The notes under the pieces were generated by a model. That model saw only the letters and a list, made by a program, of their open reading frames with translations. It was not told the origin of the DNA and searched no databases. DNA of 64,000 nucleotides from Streptomyces sp. NRRL F-6676. Its GTDB lineage: Bacteria > Actinomycetota > Actinomycetes > Streptomycetales > Streptomycetaceae. This document shows, piece after piece, positions 27,275 through 33,024 of this stretch. The position numbers and the translations under genes were made by a program. The stretch covers positions 8,684 through 72,683 of the forward strand of contig NZ_JOHS01000047.1 of assembly GCF_000725625.1 (NCBI RefSeq). The letters run 5' to 3'. The number at the start of each line of letters is the position of its first letter. Position 1 is the first letter of the stretch.

Positions 27275-28197
27275 GTTCCGTCCTGTACGACACGCCCGGC
27301 CCCCGGGCGAAGCAGCGCAACATCATCTACACGGTCGTCTTCGTCGTCCTCCTCGGCCTGCTGCTGTGGTGGGTCTGGCAGCAGCTGGACGACAACGGCC
27401 AGCTCGACTGGGCCAAGTGGAAGCCGTTCACGCTGTCGACCAGCTGGACGACGTATCTGCTGCCCGGTCTCGGCGAGACCCTCAAGGCCGCAGCGCTGTC
27501 CATGGTGATCGCGCTGCCGCTGGGCGCGCTGTTCGGCATCGCGCGGCTCTCCGACCACGTGTGGGTCCGGGTGCCGGCGGGGGTGATCGTGGAGTTCTTC
27601 CGCTCCATCCCCGTGCTGCTGATGATGGTCTTCGCCAACCAGTTCTATGTGCAGTCCACGGACCTCAGCAGTGACACCCGTCCGCTCTACGCGGTCGTCA
27701 CGGGCCTGGTGCTCTACAACGCCTCCGTCCTCGCGGAGATCGTCCGGGCGGGCATCCTGTCGCTGCCCAAGGGCCAGGCGGAGGCCTCGCACGCGATCGG
27801 TCTGCGCAAGTACCAGACCATGACGTCGATCCTGCTGCCGCAGGCGGTCACGGCGATGCTGCCGGCGATCGTCAGCCAGCTCGTCGTCATCCTGAAGGAC
27901 ACCGCGCTCGGCGGCGCGATGCTGAACTTCACGGAGCTGCTGTCCGCCCGCAAGACGCTGGCCGCCTTCTACGCCAACGTCATCCCCAGCTTCATCGTGG
28001 TGGGCCTGATCTACATCGTGCTCAACCTCGCTCTCACCACCTTCGCGAGCTGGCTGGAGCGGCGGCTGCGGCGCAGCAAGCGCGGCACGGGCACGGTGCT
28101 GGGCGCGGAGGACGTCGAGGAGCTGAACGCGGCGGAGCTCGGCAGCGTGGTCGGTGCCGGGGTCGGTGGTGCCGCCGACGATGTCGGCAAGAGGTGA
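27271..28197 (+). CDS. gluD: Glutamate ABC importer permease GluD
   Basis: The second membrane subunit, 308 residues, start ATG 27271 overlapping the gluC stop by 4 bp. N-terminal segment NIIYTVVFVVLLGLLLWWVW, then a soluble loop and the permease core (GLGETLKAAALSMVIALPLG, FFRSIPVLLMMVFANQFY). The EAA loop is QAEASHAIGLRKYQTMTSILLP. It has a charged C-terminal tail. It pairs with GluC to form the channel driven by GluA. Confidence 0.95.
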   Translation: MSSVLYDTPGPRAKQRNIIYTVVFVVLLGLLLWWVWQQLDDNGQLDWAKWKPFTLSTSWTTYLLPGLGETLKAAALSMVIALPLGALFGIARLSDHVWVRVPAGVIVEFFRSIPVLLMMVFANQFYVQSTDLSSDTRPLYAVVTGLVLYNASVLAEIVRAGILSLPKGQAEASHAIGLRKYQTMTSILLPQAVTAMLPAIVSQLVVILKDTALGGAMLNFTELLSARKTLAAFYANVIPSFIVVGLIYIVLNLALTTFASWLERRLRRSKRGTGTVLGAEDVEELNAAELGSVVGAGVGGAADDVGKR

Positions 28198-28218
28198 CGA
28201 CCGGTCACCGTACGTGAA

Positions 28219-28248
28219 CGAGGCCCGCCGGGGAACCGGCGGGCCTCG
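28219..28248 (+). terminator. gluABCD terminator hairpin
   Basis: A perfect 13-bp stem, cgaggcccgccgg with its complement, around a GGAA loop, 21 bp after the gluD stop. A short mixed T/C stretch follows. Confidence 0.85.
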
Positions 28249-28416
28249 TCGTGCGTTTCCCCGGTGACTCTGACCCACTTGGCGGCACGGCGGGGGCCGG
28301 GATGATCACGGCCGAGTCCGTCGCTTGACGCGGACAGCGGCAATGGGTTGCATACGTTCTGTGATCGTGCACCCCGCTCCACCTGCCTGTTCCCGTCCGT
28401 TCCCGAGGACTTCGTC

Positions 28417-30198
28417 ATGGGCGGGGGGCGCGGCGCCGTGGACCCGGTGATCATCGTCGGCGCAGGGCCCGTGGGGCTGGCCCTGGCACTCGCGCTGGCC
28501 CGCCAGGAGGTCCCCTCCGTGGTCCTCGACGACGGCCCGGGCAAGGACGAACCCCGGCTCGCCCGCACCGCCGTGCTGCGCGAGGACACCACCGCGCTCG
28601 TCGAACGCCTGACCGGCGCGCCGCTCACCGGGGCGGGCGTCCGCTGGAGCGGCTGGCGGTCGATGCGGCGGAAGCAGGTGATGCGGCGGGTGGTGTTCGA
28701 GGGCGCGGGCGAGGAGGCGTCCGACGGCGGATACGGGGGCGCGCTCGACGGCGGGCTCGGGGGCGGGCACGGCGGCGCGTTCGGGGGCGGGCACGGCGGC
28801 GCGTTCGGGGGCGTCGAGGACGCGCGGGGTGGCCCGGCCGAGGATTCCCCCGAGCCCCGCGGTGCCGAGGCCGCCGGACCCGCTCCCCTGCACCTCGCCC
28901 AGCACGTCCTGACCGGCGTCCTGCGGGCGGCGCTCGCCCGGGAGCCGCTGGTGAAGGTGGCGGTGGAGAGCCGGCTGGACGGCGTCGAACAGGACACGTC
29001 GGGCGTCACGGCACACACCCGGGGCCCCAAGGGCACCTGGTGGCGCGGGAGTTACCTGGTCGGCTGCGACGGCCCGCGCTCCACCGTCCGCAAACTCCAG
29101 GACATCCGTTTCCCGGGGCGCACGGCCGTCGAGCGGTACGCCGTCGCGGCCCTGCGCACCGAACTCCCGTGGAGCGGCGAAGCGTTGCTGCACCGCCTGC
29201 CGCCATGGCGCACCGCGGGCCCCTCGGCCGGCGAGGTCACCGCACGGCCGCTGCCCGAGGGGGTGTGGCGGCTGGACTGGCTGCTGCCGCCCGGCAAGGA
29301 ACTGGTGACGCCGGAGCTGCTGGTCGGCCGCATCCGCGAGACGCTCACCGGCTGGACCGGCAACGCCACACCGGCGTACGAGCTCCTGGACACCGGCGTG
29401 CACACCGTGCACCACCGGCTCGCGCGCCGCTGGCGCGCCGACCGGGTCTTCCTCGCCGGGGACGCCGCGCATCTGCTCGGCGCACTCGGCACACAGGGGC
29501 TGGACGAGGGGCTGCGGGACACGGACAACCTCGCCTGGAAACTGGCGGCCGCCTGGCACCACCCGAACGGCTCGCGCGAGGCTCTCCTCGACAGCTACCA
29601 GGAGGAACGGCGCGCGGTCGTCTCCGCCCGGCTGCGCGCCGCCGACCAGGTGCTTCCGGTACTGCGCGGCGGTCGGGGCCTGCGGTCGTACGTCCCCGGG
29701 TCCGGGCGCGGCCACGACGCGCTGCTCGCCGACGGCCACCTGGGGCGGGGTCCGCTGGGCGGCCCCGGCGCCTACACCGGCTCGCCCCTGGCGGCGCCGG
29801 ACGACGAGGCCACCGTGCCGGTGGGCACGCCGCCGGGGGCGCCGGTGGTCGACGTGACGGTGACGGCGGAGGACGGCACGTTCGTACGGCTGCGGGACCG
29901 GCTGGGGCGCGGGGCGCTGCTGGTGGTACTCGTCGCTCCGGGCACCGGGGTGTGGGAGCGGCGGCACTGGATGTCGGCCGGGATCATGCCGAGGCTCGCG
30001 GCGGCGGTGACGGCACTGCCGTACCGCGCGGAGCTCCTGGTCACCGAGAGCTATCCGGGTGCCGCCCCCCACACGGTCCTCCTGATCCGCCCCGACGGCC
30101 ACCTCGTCACCGCCCTGGCGGGCGTCCACCCCGCCGCGCTCTACACGGCCACGGCAACGGCCCTGGCCGCCCAGGAACCCACTCCGCACACGACCTGA
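28417..30198 (+). CDS. FAD-dependent aromatic-type monooxygenase
   Basis: A 593-residue flavoprotein of the PheA/TetX/MhpA-like class A monooxygenase group, which uses FAD and NAD(P)H to hydroxylate aromatic or polyketide substrates. Landmarks: the Rossmann GXGXXG in VIIVGAGPVGLALALAL, the central YLVGCDGPRSTVRK (DG motif) and the second FAD motif in FLAGDAAHLLGALGTQGLDEGL, then a thioredoxin-like C-terminal domain. The ATG at 28417 has GAGGA 7 bp upstream; TTG and GTG codons further upstream are less likely. A Gly-rich insert with GGGHGGAF repeats lies at about residues 105-135. It is monocistronic and its substrate is unknown. Confidence 0.87.
   Translation: MGGGRGAVDPVIIVGAGPVGLALALALARQEVPSVVLDDGPGKDEPRLARTAVLREDTTALVERLTGAPLTGAGVRWSGWRSMRRKQVMRRVVFEGAGEEASDGGYGGALDGGLGGGHGGAFGGGHGGAFGGVEDARGGPAEDSPEPRGAEAAGPAPLHLAQHVLTGVLRAALAREPLVKVAVESRLDGVEQDTSGVTAHTRGPKGTWWRGSYLVGCDGPRSTVRKLQDIRFPGRTAVERYAVAALRTELPWSGEALLHRLPPWRTAGPSAGEVTARPLPEGVWRLDWLLPPGKELVTPELLVGRIRETLTGWTGNATPAYELLDTGVHTVHHRLARRWRADRVFLAGDAAHLLGALGTQGLDEGLRDTDNLAWKLAAAWHHPNGSREALLDSYQEERRAVVSARLRAADQVLPVLRGGRGLRSYVPGSGRGHDALLADGHLGRGPLGGPGAYTGSPLAAPDDEATVPVGTPPGAPVVDVTVTAEDGTFVRLRDRLGRGALLVVLVAPGTGVWERRHWMSAGIMPRLAAAVTALPYRAELLVTESYPGAAPHTVLLIRPDGHLVTALAGVHPAALYTATATALAAQEPTPHTT
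28757..28810 (+). repeat. 24-bp in-frame repeat in the monooxygenase
   Basis: Two 24-bp copies (core gggcgggcacggcggcg, ending gcgttc) encoding GGGHGGAF, within a longer Gly-rich stretch that interrupts the FAD-binding part of the enzyme. Confidence 0.8.
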
Positions 30199-30204
30199 CG
30201 GACG

Positions 30205-30722
30205 GTGCGGGGGGCTCCGCCCGGGAGCGGTGGGGGACGCGCCCCATCAGGGGCGCGGGGAACCGCGCGCCCAGCCACGACACCCCCGCACCCGCCATCG
30301 CACCCCAAGTCCCCCGCCCCTCCGGGGGACTTGGGGGCAGAGCCCCCTCGGGACGGGGGGCTGGAGCCCCCGCGGGACCGGGGGCGGAGCCCCATGGCGT
30401 CCCGGGGGGGGCAGAGCCCCGCACATTCTTTCGGGGGTGCAGGGGGCGCAGCCCCCGTGCAGGGGTGCAGGGGGCGCAGCCCCCGTGCAGGGGTGCAGGG
30501 GGCGGAGCCCCCGCGGGACCGGGGGCGGAGCCCCACGGCGTCCCGGGGGGGCAGAGCCCCCGCACGTTCTTTCGGGGGTGCATGGGCCGCAGCCCCTGCG
30601 CAGGGGTGCAGGGGGCGCAGCCCCCGCGTAGGGGGCCCGGGGGCGGAGCCCCCGGTGGGGTCGAAGGGGCGGAGCCCCTGGAGGACGGGAAGGGTAGGGG
30701 CGGCGGGGGCGAAACACCCCCG
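30205..30722. repeat. Dense palindromic G/C repeat block with a 141-bp duplication
   Basis: The gap 30199-30781 after the monooxygenase is packed with short dyads of the gggggcgcagccccc type. A block of about 141 bp is duplicated in tandem: the marker gcgtcccgggggg occurs at 30397 and again at 30538, each followed by cattctttcgggggtgc or a one-base variant. Copies span about 30364-30504 and 30505-30645. At the left end (near 30245) is an inverted gttccccgcgcccct module and at the right end (30676-30722) an inverted cgcccccgccgcccct module. Open frames here are repeat artefacts. No gene seen until the leader peptide at 30782. Confidence 0.75.
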
Positions 30723-30745
30723 AAACAACACTCCGCACCCCGGAA

Positions 30746-30774
30746 TTGACCACCCGCCGCCCCCATGGTGTACT
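30746..30774 (+). promoter_or_regulatory. Probable promoter giving a leaderless leader-peptide mRNA
   Basis: TTGACC at 30746-30751, a 17-bp spacer, and TGTACT at 30769-30774. The -35 is a good match to the major actinobacterial sigma factor; the -10 is imperfect. The expected transcription start, 7-8 bases after the -10, falls at 30781-30782, the A of the leader ATG. No purine-rich ribosome site precedes that ATG, which supports a leaderless transcript. Confidence 0.55.
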
Positions 30775-30781
30775 CCCGACC

Positions 30782-30868
30782 ATGACCGACACCTGCGTAC
30801 GCCTCTGGCGGAGGGTCCACATGGACCTCGTCCGCTACGCAGGCTGCGTATGTAGCCCGTCCTGCTGA
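30782..30868 (+). CDS. Cysteine-rich leader peptide (attenuator) of the CDO-rhodanese operon
   Basis: A 28-codon open frame: MTDTCVRLWRRV, then HMDLVRYAGCVC, then SPSC. It has four Cys codons, three in the last seven residues (Cys22, Cys24, Cys28). The HMDLVR core resembles the HVDLxR signature of short Streptomyces leader peptides that precede sulfur-metabolism genes. It lies 132 bp upstream of cysteine dioxygenase. A GGCCGG/CCGGCC hairpin (30885-30890 with 30896-30901) begins 16 bases after its stop, within reach of a ribosome stalled at the final codons. The inferred role is to report cysteinyl-tRNA charging by stalling at Cys codons. Function is inferred from position and composition; no strong intrinsic terminator is visible. 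Confidence 0.75.
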   Translation: MTDTCVRLWRRVHMDLVRYAGCVCSPSC

Positions 30869-31000
30869 ACCACACCCCCCTTCCGGCCGGTCCCCCCGGC
30901 CCCCGGTTCACCCCCGGCTCCCCATTGCCGCGTACCCACGCCCCCGCAGGGCCACCACGCGTACCCCGGAGAGCCCCGGACTCCTCAGGACGGTCCCGCG

Positions 31001-31552
31001 ATGTCTGCAACCCCTTCTTCCGCCACCAGCTCCCTCACCTCCCACGCCCCCACCCCCACACCCCCCACCCAGGCCGAACTCCTCGACTTCGTCCACCGCA
31101 CCGCCGCCGACACAGAACTGATCGACTCCCTCCCCCTCGACCCGGAGGGCCGCACCTGGATCCGCCTCGACGGCCCCGGCGGCAGCGAGGCCTGGCTGAT
31201 CGGCTGGCCCCCCGGCACCGGCACCGGCTGGCACGACCACGCCGACTCGGTCGGCGCCTTCCTCACCGCCCGCGGCGAGTTGAAGGAGAACGCGCTCGCC
31301 GCCCGACTGCCCACCGACGGCTGGAAGACCCTCGAACTGACCGAGGACGTCGACCGCGAGCGCCGGCTGCCGGCCGGCAAGGGCCGCGCCTTCGGCCGCC
31401 ACCACGTGCACGAGGTGCTCAACGAGTCCGCCGACGCCCACGCCGTCTCCGTCCACGCCTACTACCCGCCCCTGCCGCGCATCCGCCGCTACTCCCGCTC
31501 GGGCCACGTCCTGCGCCTGGAGCAGGTCGAGAGCCCGGAGGACTGGCAGTGA
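31001..31552 (+). CDS. Cysteine dioxygenase (cupin)
   Basis: A 183-residue cupin of the bacterial cysteine dioxygenase family, which oxidises cysteine to cysteine sulfinate with a non-haem Fe(II) centre. The iron ligands are visible as His78 and His80 in GWHDHADSVGAF and a third His in the GRHHVHEVLN segment (His137 most likely). The first ~20 residues are a Ser/Thr/Pro-rich variable lead. The ATG at 31001 follows AGGACGG. The rhodanese start overlaps its stop (GTGA), indicating translational coupling. With the leader peptide upstream it forms a cysteine-responsive catabolic unit. Confidence 0.92.
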   Translation: MSATPSSATSSLTSHAPTPTPPTQAELLDFVHRTAADTELIDSLPLDPEGRTWIRLDGPGGSEAWLIGWPPGTGTGWHDHADSVGAFLTARGELKENALAARLPTDGWKTLELTEDVDRERRLPAGKGRAFGRHHVHEVLNESADAHAVSVHAYYPPLPRIRRYSRSGHVLRLEQVESPEDWQ

Positions 31553-32019
31553 GTCCCAGCCGTCCCTCCGCCGACCACGGCCTCAGCCGCCCGCAACCGC
31601 CCCTCGGCATCGACGAGTTGCTGGACCGGGTCCGCGCGGACCTGGACCGGGTCGAACCCCGGCGGGCCCACGAGGAGGCGCAGTCGGCCGGCACCCTGCT
31701 GGTCGACATCCGCTACGCCGCCCTGCGCGACCGTGACGGCCTCGTCCCCGGCGCCGTCATCGTCGAGCGCAACGAACTGGAATGGCGCCTGGACCCCACC
31801 GGCAGCCACCGCATCCCGGAGGCCACCGGCCACGACCTGCGCGTGATCGTCTTCTGCAACGAGGGCTACGCCTCCAGTCTGGCCGCCGCGTCCCTGCGCC
31901 GACTCGGCCTCCACCGCGCCACCGACCTGACAGGCGGCTTCCAGGCCTGGCGCGCCGAGGGCCTGCCGGTGACGTTCGCCCCAGGACGTCCCCCCACGGC
32001 CCCCGTGCAACCCCACTGA
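31549..32019 (+). CDS. Single-domain rhodanese-like sulfurtransferase
   Basis: A 156-residue rhodanese domain protein translationally coupled to cysteine dioxygenase (GTG start 31549 overlaps the preceding TGA by 4 bp). The fold is shown by TLLVDIRYAALRDRDGLVPGAV, the active-site loop FCNEGYASS with nucleophile Cys103, and the closing DLTGGFQAWRAEGLPV. Rhodaneses move sulfane sulfur; the pairing suggests handling of sulfur released during cysteine breakdown. The CNEGYASS loop is unusually Gly/Glu/Tyr-rich compared with the common CRSGxRS, so acceptor specificity may differ. Confidence 0.92.
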   Translation: MSPSRPSADHGLSRPQPPLGIDELLDRVRADLDRVEPRRAHEEAQSAGTLLVDIRYAALRDRDGLVPGAVIVERNELEWRLDPTGSHRIPEATGHDLRVIVFCNEGYASSLAAASLRRLGLHRATDLTGGFQAWRAEGLPVTFAPGRPPTAPVQPH

Positions 32020-32184
32020 GCCGATTGCCCCGACCCCGCCCGGCGCCCGCGCCCCGGCCCCGGCCCCGGGCGGGTCGAGGTGGAACCGCCCCTCGCCAGG
32101 CACCCGCCCCAGCCGACTCAGCCCCCCTTGTCCCCCTCGCCTCTCTCGTCCCCCCACGTCGCCCGTGCCCACTCGTTCACTCGT

Positions 32185-33024
32185 TCACTCGAACCCCAGA
32201 TCCTCCGTCTCTTCCCCCTCCTCCTCCAGCGCCCGCCGGACCACCCGGAGGGCCATGCCCTCCGGATACCCCTTGCGGGCCAGCATCCCGGCAAGGCGGC
32301 GCAGCCGCTTGTCGCGGTCGAGTCCACGCGTCGCGCGGAGCTTGCGCGCGACCAGTTCCCGCGCCGTCTCCTCCTCCTGCTCGGCGTCGAGCTGCCCCAC
32401 GGCCTCGTCGATCAGGGCCGGGGCGACCCCCTTCGTCCGGAGCTCCCGGGCGAGCGCCCGCCGCGCCAGGCCCCGGCCGTGATGCCGGGACTCCACCCAG
32501 GCGTCCGCGAACGCTCCGTCGTCGATCAGACCGACCTCCGCGAACCGGTCGAGCACGCCGTCCGCCACGTCGTCCGGGATCTCCCGCTTGCGCAGGGCGT
32601 CCGCGAGCTGTTTCCGCGTGCGCGGGGTCCCGGTGAGCAGGCGCAGACAGATCGCCCGCGCCCGCTCCTCCGGGTCCCCTGGGGACTCCCCCTGCTCGGC
32701 CCTCGACGAGGAGGAGGAGCCCCCGTCCTGTGCGGCGCCGGTCCCCTCCCCGGAACCGCGCCGTCGTCCCCGGCCCCGTCCCGCGTGCGCGCCCCCGGCC
32801 CGGCGGGCGCCACCCCGCCGCGTGCCACCGCCGCCGGCCCCGCCGGCCGGTTCGCCGCCCTCGCCGCCGGTGCCGTCCCCCGGCCCCCCGCCGGCGCCGT
32901 ACGCGTGCTCGTCGTACCCCCCGTCCCCGTCCGCGACGGGCCGGCCGCCGGCGTCACCGGTCCCCCGGCCGGAGGGCGCGGGGGGCCGGGGGGTGTACTC
33001 GGCCCACTCGGTGCGTCGTGTCAT
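32185..33024 (-). CDS. recX: RecA regulator RecX
   Basis: RecX blocks RecA filament extension. The protein is 279 residues; the conserved three-helix repeats occupy only about residues 120-265 (ICLRLLTGTPRTRKQLADAL, DDVADGVLDRFAEVGLIDD, FADAWVESRHHGRGLARRAL, KLRATRGLDRDKRLRRLAGM). The first ~115 residues are a Gly/Arg-rich disordered extension, common in Streptomyces. It starts at ATG 33024, 6 bp after the recA stop, so it is co-transcribed with recA and shares its damage induction. Confidence 0.95.
   Translation of the reverse strand: MTRRTEWAEYTPRPPAPSGRGTGDAGGRPVADGDGGYDEHAYGAGGGPGDGTGGEGGEPAGGAGGGGTRRGGARRAGGAHAGRGRGRRRGSGEGTGAAQDGGSSSSSRAEQGESPGDPEERARAICLRLLTGTPRTRKQLADALRKREIPDDVADGVLDRFAEVGLIDDGAFADAWVESRHHGRGLARRALARELRTKGVAPALIDEAVGQLDAEQEEETARELVARKLRATRGLDRDKRLRRLAGMLARKGYPEGMALRVVRRALEEEGEETEDLGFE

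Follow-up and report, generated by a model that had tools for sequence, protein, structure and literature searches.

The cysteine dioxygenase (CDO) gene of Streptomyces is preceded by a conserved cysteine-codon leader peptide whose last codons are complementary to the Shine–Dalgarno sequence of the gene and whose penultimate cysteine codon is invariantly UGU. We favor, with somewhat more confidence than doubt, a translational attenuator in which the end of the leader hides the CDO Shine–Dalgarno sequence and a stalled ribosome frees it. The analysis started from a 64,000-nt stretch of the Streptomyces sp. NRRL F-6676 genome (contig NZ_JOHS01000047.1), hereafter the window, and was extended to CDO loci of the genus, its family and class.

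The leader peptide and its distribution

In the window, the frame from ATG 30782 to TGA 30866–30868 encodes MTDTCVRLWRRVHMDLVRYAGCVCSPSC, with four cysteines, three of them among the last seven residues, and lies upstream of CDO and a coupled rhodanese gene, just as the initial annotation had described it from the sequence. The peptide matches the whole NCBIfam profile NF042934 ("putative leader peptide"; positions 1–19 of 19, 37.1 bits, cut-off 27), and its score against the mycobacterial family NF042933 (leader_Ms5788A; 16.8 bits) is below the cut-off of 45. It is an NF042934 member by profile and, by its likely mechanism, a leader of the cysteine kind. An Rfam scan of 28000–33000 up to E = 1 gave no match within 30782–31001. 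The HxH, HH, and S-x-H-x-Y stretches of the CDO align with those of solved CDOs, of which the closest by sequence (8qfr and 8qfl, "Cysteine dioxygenase," E = 4e-11) are remote; some relatives of the CDO fold act on other thiols. Downstream of the two genes, recX and recA lie on the opposite strand. In S. coelicolor, recA is sco5769 and recX is sco5770 (PMC6637917), and SCO5772 is annotated as a putative cysteine dioxygenase (PMC3087709); on the basis of this numbering and annotation, we took SCO5772 as the orthologue of the window CDO.

Table 1. Positions of the leader, CDO, and rhodanese features in the window
Feature	Position	Strand	Basis or remark
Promoter-like boxes, −35 TTGACC (30746–30751) and −10 TGTACT (30769–30774), spacing 17 nt	30746..30774	+	Sequence
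Leader ORF, 28 codons, NF042934 cis_reg_atten	30782..30868	+	Profile score and presence at 52/53 genus loci
Hairpin inside leader ORF, arms 30806–30812/30831–30837 and 30813–30818/30823–30828	30806..30837	+	
GGAGG within the ORF and in-frame ATG 30821; may be a second start or a pause site	30810..30823	+	Sequence
Cys22 codon TGC	30845..30847	+	TGC 48, TGT 4 of 52
Cys24 codon TGT, proposed sensing codon	30851..30853	+	TGT in 90/90 CDO leaders
CCGTCCTG, anti-Shine–Dalgarno strand in codons 26–28	30857..30864	+	Exact complement of 30986–30993
GGCCGG (30885–30890)/CCGGCC (30896–30901) hairpin, 16 nt after leader stop	30885..30901	+	Initial annotation
CAGGACGG, Shine–Dalgarno region of CDO	30986..30993	+	7 nt before ATG 31001; conserved
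Cysteine dioxygenase type I (CDO), PF05995, 168 bits	31001..31552	+	Profile match
Rhodanese-domain protein, PF00581, GTG start overlapping CDO stop	31549..32019	+	Profile match

The genus sample comprised 61 genomes, 60 of them with some CDO match, and the 53 orthologue-level matches (at least 67% identity) were used. A comparison across these loci, in line with a check proposed in the initial annotation, located the leader upstream of CDO at 52 of the 53. The exception (L071, genome G012) has lost the leader, its CDO frame being joined to coding-looking DNA that is LacI-like by eye, and was excluded from every leader count. The leader was also found at 15 of 16 further genus loci (missing at L093, a partial CDO match) and at all 80 loci of named Streptomyces, a set that overlaps the other genus loci; one of the 80 (L176, S. 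tailanensis) has the 3′ half alone. There, the promoter and the 5′ half of the leader are replaced, and the cysteine codons and the Shine–Dalgarno-pairing end are kept. A related leader lies within 700 nt upstream of CDO in 25 of 34 loci from other genera of the family and in 1 of 6 loci outside the family, two of the six having <300 nt of upstream sequence. A table of 90 leaders omits L096, L116, and L118, at which another frame or a fused reading was picked; L089 duplicates L050. The leader seen in the window is thereby confirmed as real. In view of its conservation at a single site in 52 of 53 loci, and of the RNA-level constraint on its hairpin and UGU codon described below, we consider it extremely improbable that the frame is a conserved small peptide or a chance ORF without control over CDO.

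Matches to NF042934 occur in 95 of 118 genomes of the class and exceed the cut-off in 78. The window's own genome has four above the cut-off, including the CDO leader; the other three precede a CysO-like/cysM pair, the sulfite reductase gene cysI followed by cysH, and a cysA2-type thiosulfate sulfurtransferase gene (genes named by eye). The CDO leader shares the profile of these members and differs in having CDO as its target; by eye, its GGAGG sequence and internal hairpin are absent from the other three. Separately, S. lividans metL, MSTTSDRTPATEATTTPGARCMCRRMCAF, is listed as a methionine leader in PMC8079986, and its end, C-M-C-R-R-M-C, resembles a cysteine leader.

The initial annotation had placed promoter-like boxes (TTGACC-N17-TGTACT) ahead of the leader ATG, and their coordinates proved accurate, with 7 nt between TGTACT and the ATG. 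In all 52 relatives, a −10-like box precedes the leader start, ending 7 nt before it in 47 and 6 nt before it in 5, and in 51 of them the spacer between the boxes measures 17 or 18 nt. According to PMC8079986, the mean distance from the −10 element to the transcription start in S. lividans is 6.3 nt; by the same source, TGTACT is without the A that is usual at position 2 in Streptomyces. Because the −10-like box sits 6 to 7 nt before the start codon, the leader transcript is probably leaderless and begins at that codon. The earlier call of an apparently leaderless frame is in keeping with the box spacing but qualified in two respects: a strict sigma-70 scan found no promoter within 30500–31100, and an internal start is possible. 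The internal GGAGG (30810–30814) lies 6 nt ahead of the in-frame ATG 30821, from which translation could begin as a second start; of the 52 loci, 6 have CTG and 4 have GTG at this position, which counts against such a start. The rare codon AGG within the GGAGG region is retained in 47 of 52 loci.

Farther upstream (30205–30700), between a gene for an FAD-dependent oxygenase and the leader, the window contains dense GGGGGCGGAGCCCC-like palindromic repeats, as judged by eye. In many Streptomyces (e.g., L173, L179, and L191), an inverted repeat TCACTGTCAC...GTGACAGTGA adjoins the −35 box and looks like a candidate regulator-binding site. A loose pattern for one of its arms matched 39 of the 80 named Streptomyces loci and was not found in window positions 30331–30781.

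Predicted pairing with the CDO Shine–Dalgarno sequence and hairpins

Codons 26 to 28 of the leader, CCG TCC TG(C), are complementary to the Shine–Dalgarno stretch of CDO (Table 1). Across 52 loci, all eight positions pair in 38, seven in 7, six in 3, and five in 4; three of the four five-pair loci have a one-base insertion in the Shine–Dalgarno sequence that puts them outside the fixed register. In computed folds, the ensemble pairing probability was 0.95 in the window; with the register fixed, it was >0.5 in 43 of the 52 loci and at most 0.5 in 9. Both strands are canonical in 64 of the 80 named Streptomyces loci. The seventh position holds T-A in 56 of 72 distinct sequences, T-G in 6, C-G in 3, and unpaired bases in 7, the C-G pairs (L104, L109, and L113) all belonging to one other genus and representing a single compensatory change from U-A to C-G. 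Relative to a synonymous-codon null, the pairing is not exceptional because few codon choices exist: a median of 21% of variants pair with the Shine–Dalgarno sequence as well, and 3 of the 72 sequences reach the best 5%. It is, therefore, weak evidence in any single genome, and the argument for it rests on persistence across loci. By eye, several leaders in other genera of the family lack the pairing. At three loci of one other genus (L116–L118), the leader ends early (..CTAG) and a copy of CCGTCCTG directly follows its stop; two loci of the same genus (L120 and L126) have no such copy after the stop. Control may be wired differently in L116–L118.

Among 51 distinct leaders, 8 of the 13 pairs of the hairpin inside the ORF are never broken and the rest are broken in one to six leaders, with a double change in L054. 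In 58 of the 72 sequences, no more than 5% of the synonymous variants are more stable than this hairpin. A second leader hairpin (CGGGC/GCCCG) that would hold the cysteine codons was dropped, as 0 of 72 sequences reached the 5% level against synonymous variants. A stem (TTCGC/GCGAA) between the stop codon and the Shine–Dalgarno sequence occurs loosely in 46 of 52 relatives and is absent from the window sequence.

The GGCCGG/CCGGCC hairpin lies where the initial annotation had put it, but the role of attenuator assigned to it there did not hold up. It has no U run, and it occurs in the closest relative (L077), other relatives carrying different hairpins by eye; for these two reasons it was set aside as a terminator or attenuator, and the feature that is conserved is the Shine–Dalgarno pairing. 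A scan of the + strand from the leader to CDO found no intrinsic terminator. The leader might act on transcription by another route, the stretch after it serving as a Rho site at which translation or stalling alters termination. The spacer (30869–30985) contains 65 C and 26 G in 117 nt, Rho has been suggested for mycobacterial cys leaders (PMC1262725), and the H2O2 response considered below is a change at the mRNA level (PMC4991794), but the conservation of the Shine–Dalgarno pairing and the blank terminator scan leave Rho as a highly improbable explanation. Rho-type control could operate in addition to the pairing.

The invariant UGU codon and ribosome position

At Cys24 the codon is TGT in 52 of 52 genus leaders, in all 90 CDO leaders with other genera included, and at all 80 named loci. 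The same profile position (19) is TGT in each of the best-scoring 30 matches of the class-wide search. These 30 leaders and 12 from two Streptomyces genomes (in all, L142–L171, L032–L034, L252–L258, L260, and L261) gave 41 distinct sequences after identical ones were merged, and position 19 is TGT in all 41, whatever gene follows. The other cysteine codons of the 41 leaders are TGC in 54 cases and TGT in 15, and TGT makes up 24 of 140 cysteine codons in the genes of the window. Since the NF042934 profile is built on amino acids, the invariance is not a matter of ascertainment. Codons beside the UGU vary, 40 of 41 leaders have C or T as the next base, and L251, with Tyr at position 22, retains UGU24. 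The outer positions are looser: Cys5 is cysteine in just 17 and Cys28 in 46 of the 52 genus loci. An RR..DL.R nascent-chain motif lies at a constant distance from the UGU in the leaders retrieved class-wide. We infer that sensing takes place at the UGU, a codon favored for being read slowly by wobble and held at a set distance from this motif.

The effect of ribosome position was modeled by blocking the ribosome footprint, refolding the RNA, and reading the unpaired probability of the Shine–Dalgarno core. The median over 52 loci was 0.004 without a ribosome and 0.006 with Cys22 in the A site, compared with 0.29 for Cys24, 0.36 for Cys28, and 0.35 for the stop codon; in the window alone, a ribosome at Cys24 changed the value from 0.01 to 0.19. 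The contrast between Cys22 and Cys24 holds with the leading edge set at +12 to +16 and weakens at +17 and +18; the order is kept from +12 to +18, with values running from 0.005/0.195 to 0.213/0.307 (18 loci, the window counted twice). In the model, the Shine–Dalgarno core thus opens at Cys24 but not at Cys22, which makes Cys24 the position at which a pause would have consequences. Over the whole 16-nt start region, accessibility was unaffected by ribosome position (medians of 0.35 free and 0.33 at Cys24). A terminating ribosome also covers the pairing strand in the model, which counts against the favored attenuator.

In the switch that we favor, transcription would begin at the leader start codon, and ribosomes would load at the 5′ end and translate the leader. 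With ample Cys-tRNA, the ribosome would finish and depart, the last codons would pair with the CDO Shine–Dalgarno sequence, and CDO expression would be low, with the rhodanese kept low alongside it through the overlapping start. When Cys-tRNA is short, the ribosome would wait at the wobble-read UGU of Cys24, perhaps assisted by the conserved nascent chain; its front would cover the pairing strand, and the opened Shine–Dalgarno sequence would allow translation of CDO. Stalling is thus predicted to raise CDO in the cell.

Direction of control and a second cysteine dioxygenase

Genomes of the genus usually carry a distant CDO paralogue (the copy at L076, 1211–1717 on the − strand, matches PF05995 with 57.8 bits), which in S. 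coelicolor we take to be SCO3035. Its upstream region was examined at seven loci (L076 and L136–L141), from the window genome and six others. The possibility that it has the same leader as the first CDO was rejected, as an NF042934-type leader was found at none of the seven and all seven have an unrelated poly-Cys leader, e.g., MLANLALTSTRSAGFLGAAHARCSCCCSSC; an NCBIfam search with two of these leaders matched no family. When the 61 genus genomes were searched with a strict DNA pattern for this leader, 14 gave one match each, and the reversed control pattern matched in 2; the 14 leader matches share contigs with, and sit near, the second-CDO matches. The cysteine tract of this leader pairs with the opening codons of the second CDO. 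In the model, a ribosome in the tract opens the second-CDO start codons (from 0.17 to ∼0.5 in L136; weakest in L076 and L141), a region that was scored after the fold had been seen, and Shine–Dalgarno accessibility is nearly flat. As the model opens both paralogues in the stalled state through leaders that are unrelated, we argue that this wiring has been selected.

Published mRNA data from S. coelicolor bear on the direction of control. Upon H2O2 treatment, 28 genes pass the rise threshold, including cysI, cysH, cysA, and cysM; SCO5772 is induced 8-fold and SCO3035 6.5-fold, and metNIQ rises together with the cys genes (PMC4991794). The induction depends on HbpS-SenS-SenR, and the authors explain it through SenR (PMC4991794). 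In a genome labeled S. violaceoruber NRRL S-981, NF042934 leaders lie by eye before cysO-cysM, CDO, sulfite reductase, cysA2, and sulfonate-type genes, and the NF042934-led operons in this genome and that of the window look like the same four as in the H2O2-induced set. Diamide induces cysI, cysA, and cysM independently of NdgR (PMC4340878). Together, the H2O2 and diamide data point to a direction shared with the cysteine-synthesis genes, not to a mechanism. In S. venezuelae, nitrogen starvation induces the CDO orthologue >5-fold and ammonium represses it, and the response is lost in a glnR mutant (PMC3087709). Since the response needs glnR, a separate transcriptional input exists, and this nitrogen induction suggests that cysteine is used as a nutrient.

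Induction of a cysteine-degrading enzyme by low cysteine would be odd physiologically. The initial annotation had proposed a possibly new polarity, with stalling at low cysteine lowering CDO expression, which agrees with a degradative enzyme. In the model a ribosome at Cys22 leaves the Shine–Dalgarno sequence paired, and the copy of CCGTCCTG after the stop in L116–L118 is beyond reach of a ribosome at a cysteine codon. The invariant codon is, however, Cys24, and a modeled stall there or at Cys28 removes the pairing, so that the reversed polarity is not supported; the model of the second-CDO leader has the opening sign too, and the H2O2 data are opposed. We consider the reversed polarity distinctly unlikely. 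As a whole, the earlier interpretation is partly supported: a leaderless-type, cysteine-codon leader peptide ahead of the CDO–rhodanese pair, related to the mycobacterial ones, is supported, but the hairpin as attenuator and the new polarity are not.

The sign would also be reconciled with catabolism by nascent-chain arrest at high effector, as in TnaC and SpeFL, with WRRVHxDLxRYAG in the exit tunnel, cysteine or a related metabolite causing a stall near the end of the leader, and the CDO site thereby exposed. Exposure at high cysteine suits a catabolic gene, and a catabolic role agrees with the induction on nitrogen starvation (PMC3087709). The peptide is, moreover, conserved beyond what cysteine codons need, the codons for His13, Leu16, Arg18, and Tyr19 changing synonymously between genera, and the RR..DL.R motif keeps its constant spacing to the UGU across the class. 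Against this, leaders with this motif and UGU also stand before operons for cysteine synthesis, for which arrest at high cysteine has the wrong sign, and CDO goes up with the cysteine-synthesis genes under H2O2 (PMC4991794). Arrest at high effector is in our estimation unlikely, and we retain the opening of CDO by a ribosome waiting for Cys-tRNA.

A wider proposal, which we advance tentatively and with slightly less than even confidence, is that Streptomyces turns on both CDOs at low Cys-tRNA via two unrelated leaders, that the enzymes serve not as overflow valves but as part of a cysteine-limitation or oxidative response, and that the whole actinobacterial leader family senses at a fixed, invariable UGU held at constant distance from a pause-promoting nascent-chain motif. 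If so, the CDOs would recover sulfur from cysteine or other thiols; were they to recover sulfur or nitrogen, induction by starvation would make sense. Breakdown and synthesis of cysteine would then stand under one ribosome-read signal, against simple supply-and-demand logic. The leader switch would offer a common cause for the NdgR-independent diamide induction of cysI, cysA, and cysM (PMC4340878). If codon decoding is the sensor, one silent change of UGU to UGC should alter sensitivity.

Comparison with known leader systems

The kind of leader is known; new to us are CDO as its target, the invariant UGU, and the recurrence of the arrangement, by way of an unrelated leader, at the second CDO. 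A literature search of limited reach, covering titles and abstracts, found no cysteine leader at a Streptomyces CDO among the matches listed. In mycobacteria, Ms5788A-type leaders are leaderless poly-cysteine ORFs (Shell 2015, PMC4633059), and in the Canestrari 2020 attenuators, as described in PMC9031893 and PMC13236596, pairing masks the Shine–Dalgarno sequence and a stalled ribosome uncovers it, so that stalling is reported to raise expression. The CDO leader has in common with this type a short cysteine-codon ORF, probably at the 5′ end of the transcript, a place before sulfur genes, and a predicted pairing with the Shine–Dalgarno sequence. It differs in scoring below the NF042933 cut-off, in a target that oxidizes cysteine, and in having C-V-C-x-x-x-C (C-V-C-S-P-S-C in the window) and not a contiguous cysteine run; such runs occur in some NF042934 members (L142, L144, and L145) and in the second-CDO leader.

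With trp-type transcription attenuators, the CDO leader shares a leader peptide with regulatory codons, but the scan found no intrinsic terminator after it. TnaC and SpeFL are arrest peptides that control catabolic genes in response to high effector. The CDO leader resembles them as a leader peptide before a catabolic gene and in its conserved nascent chain; its motif is, in contrast, shared with biosynthetic operons, and sensing of a high free amino acid is not indicated.
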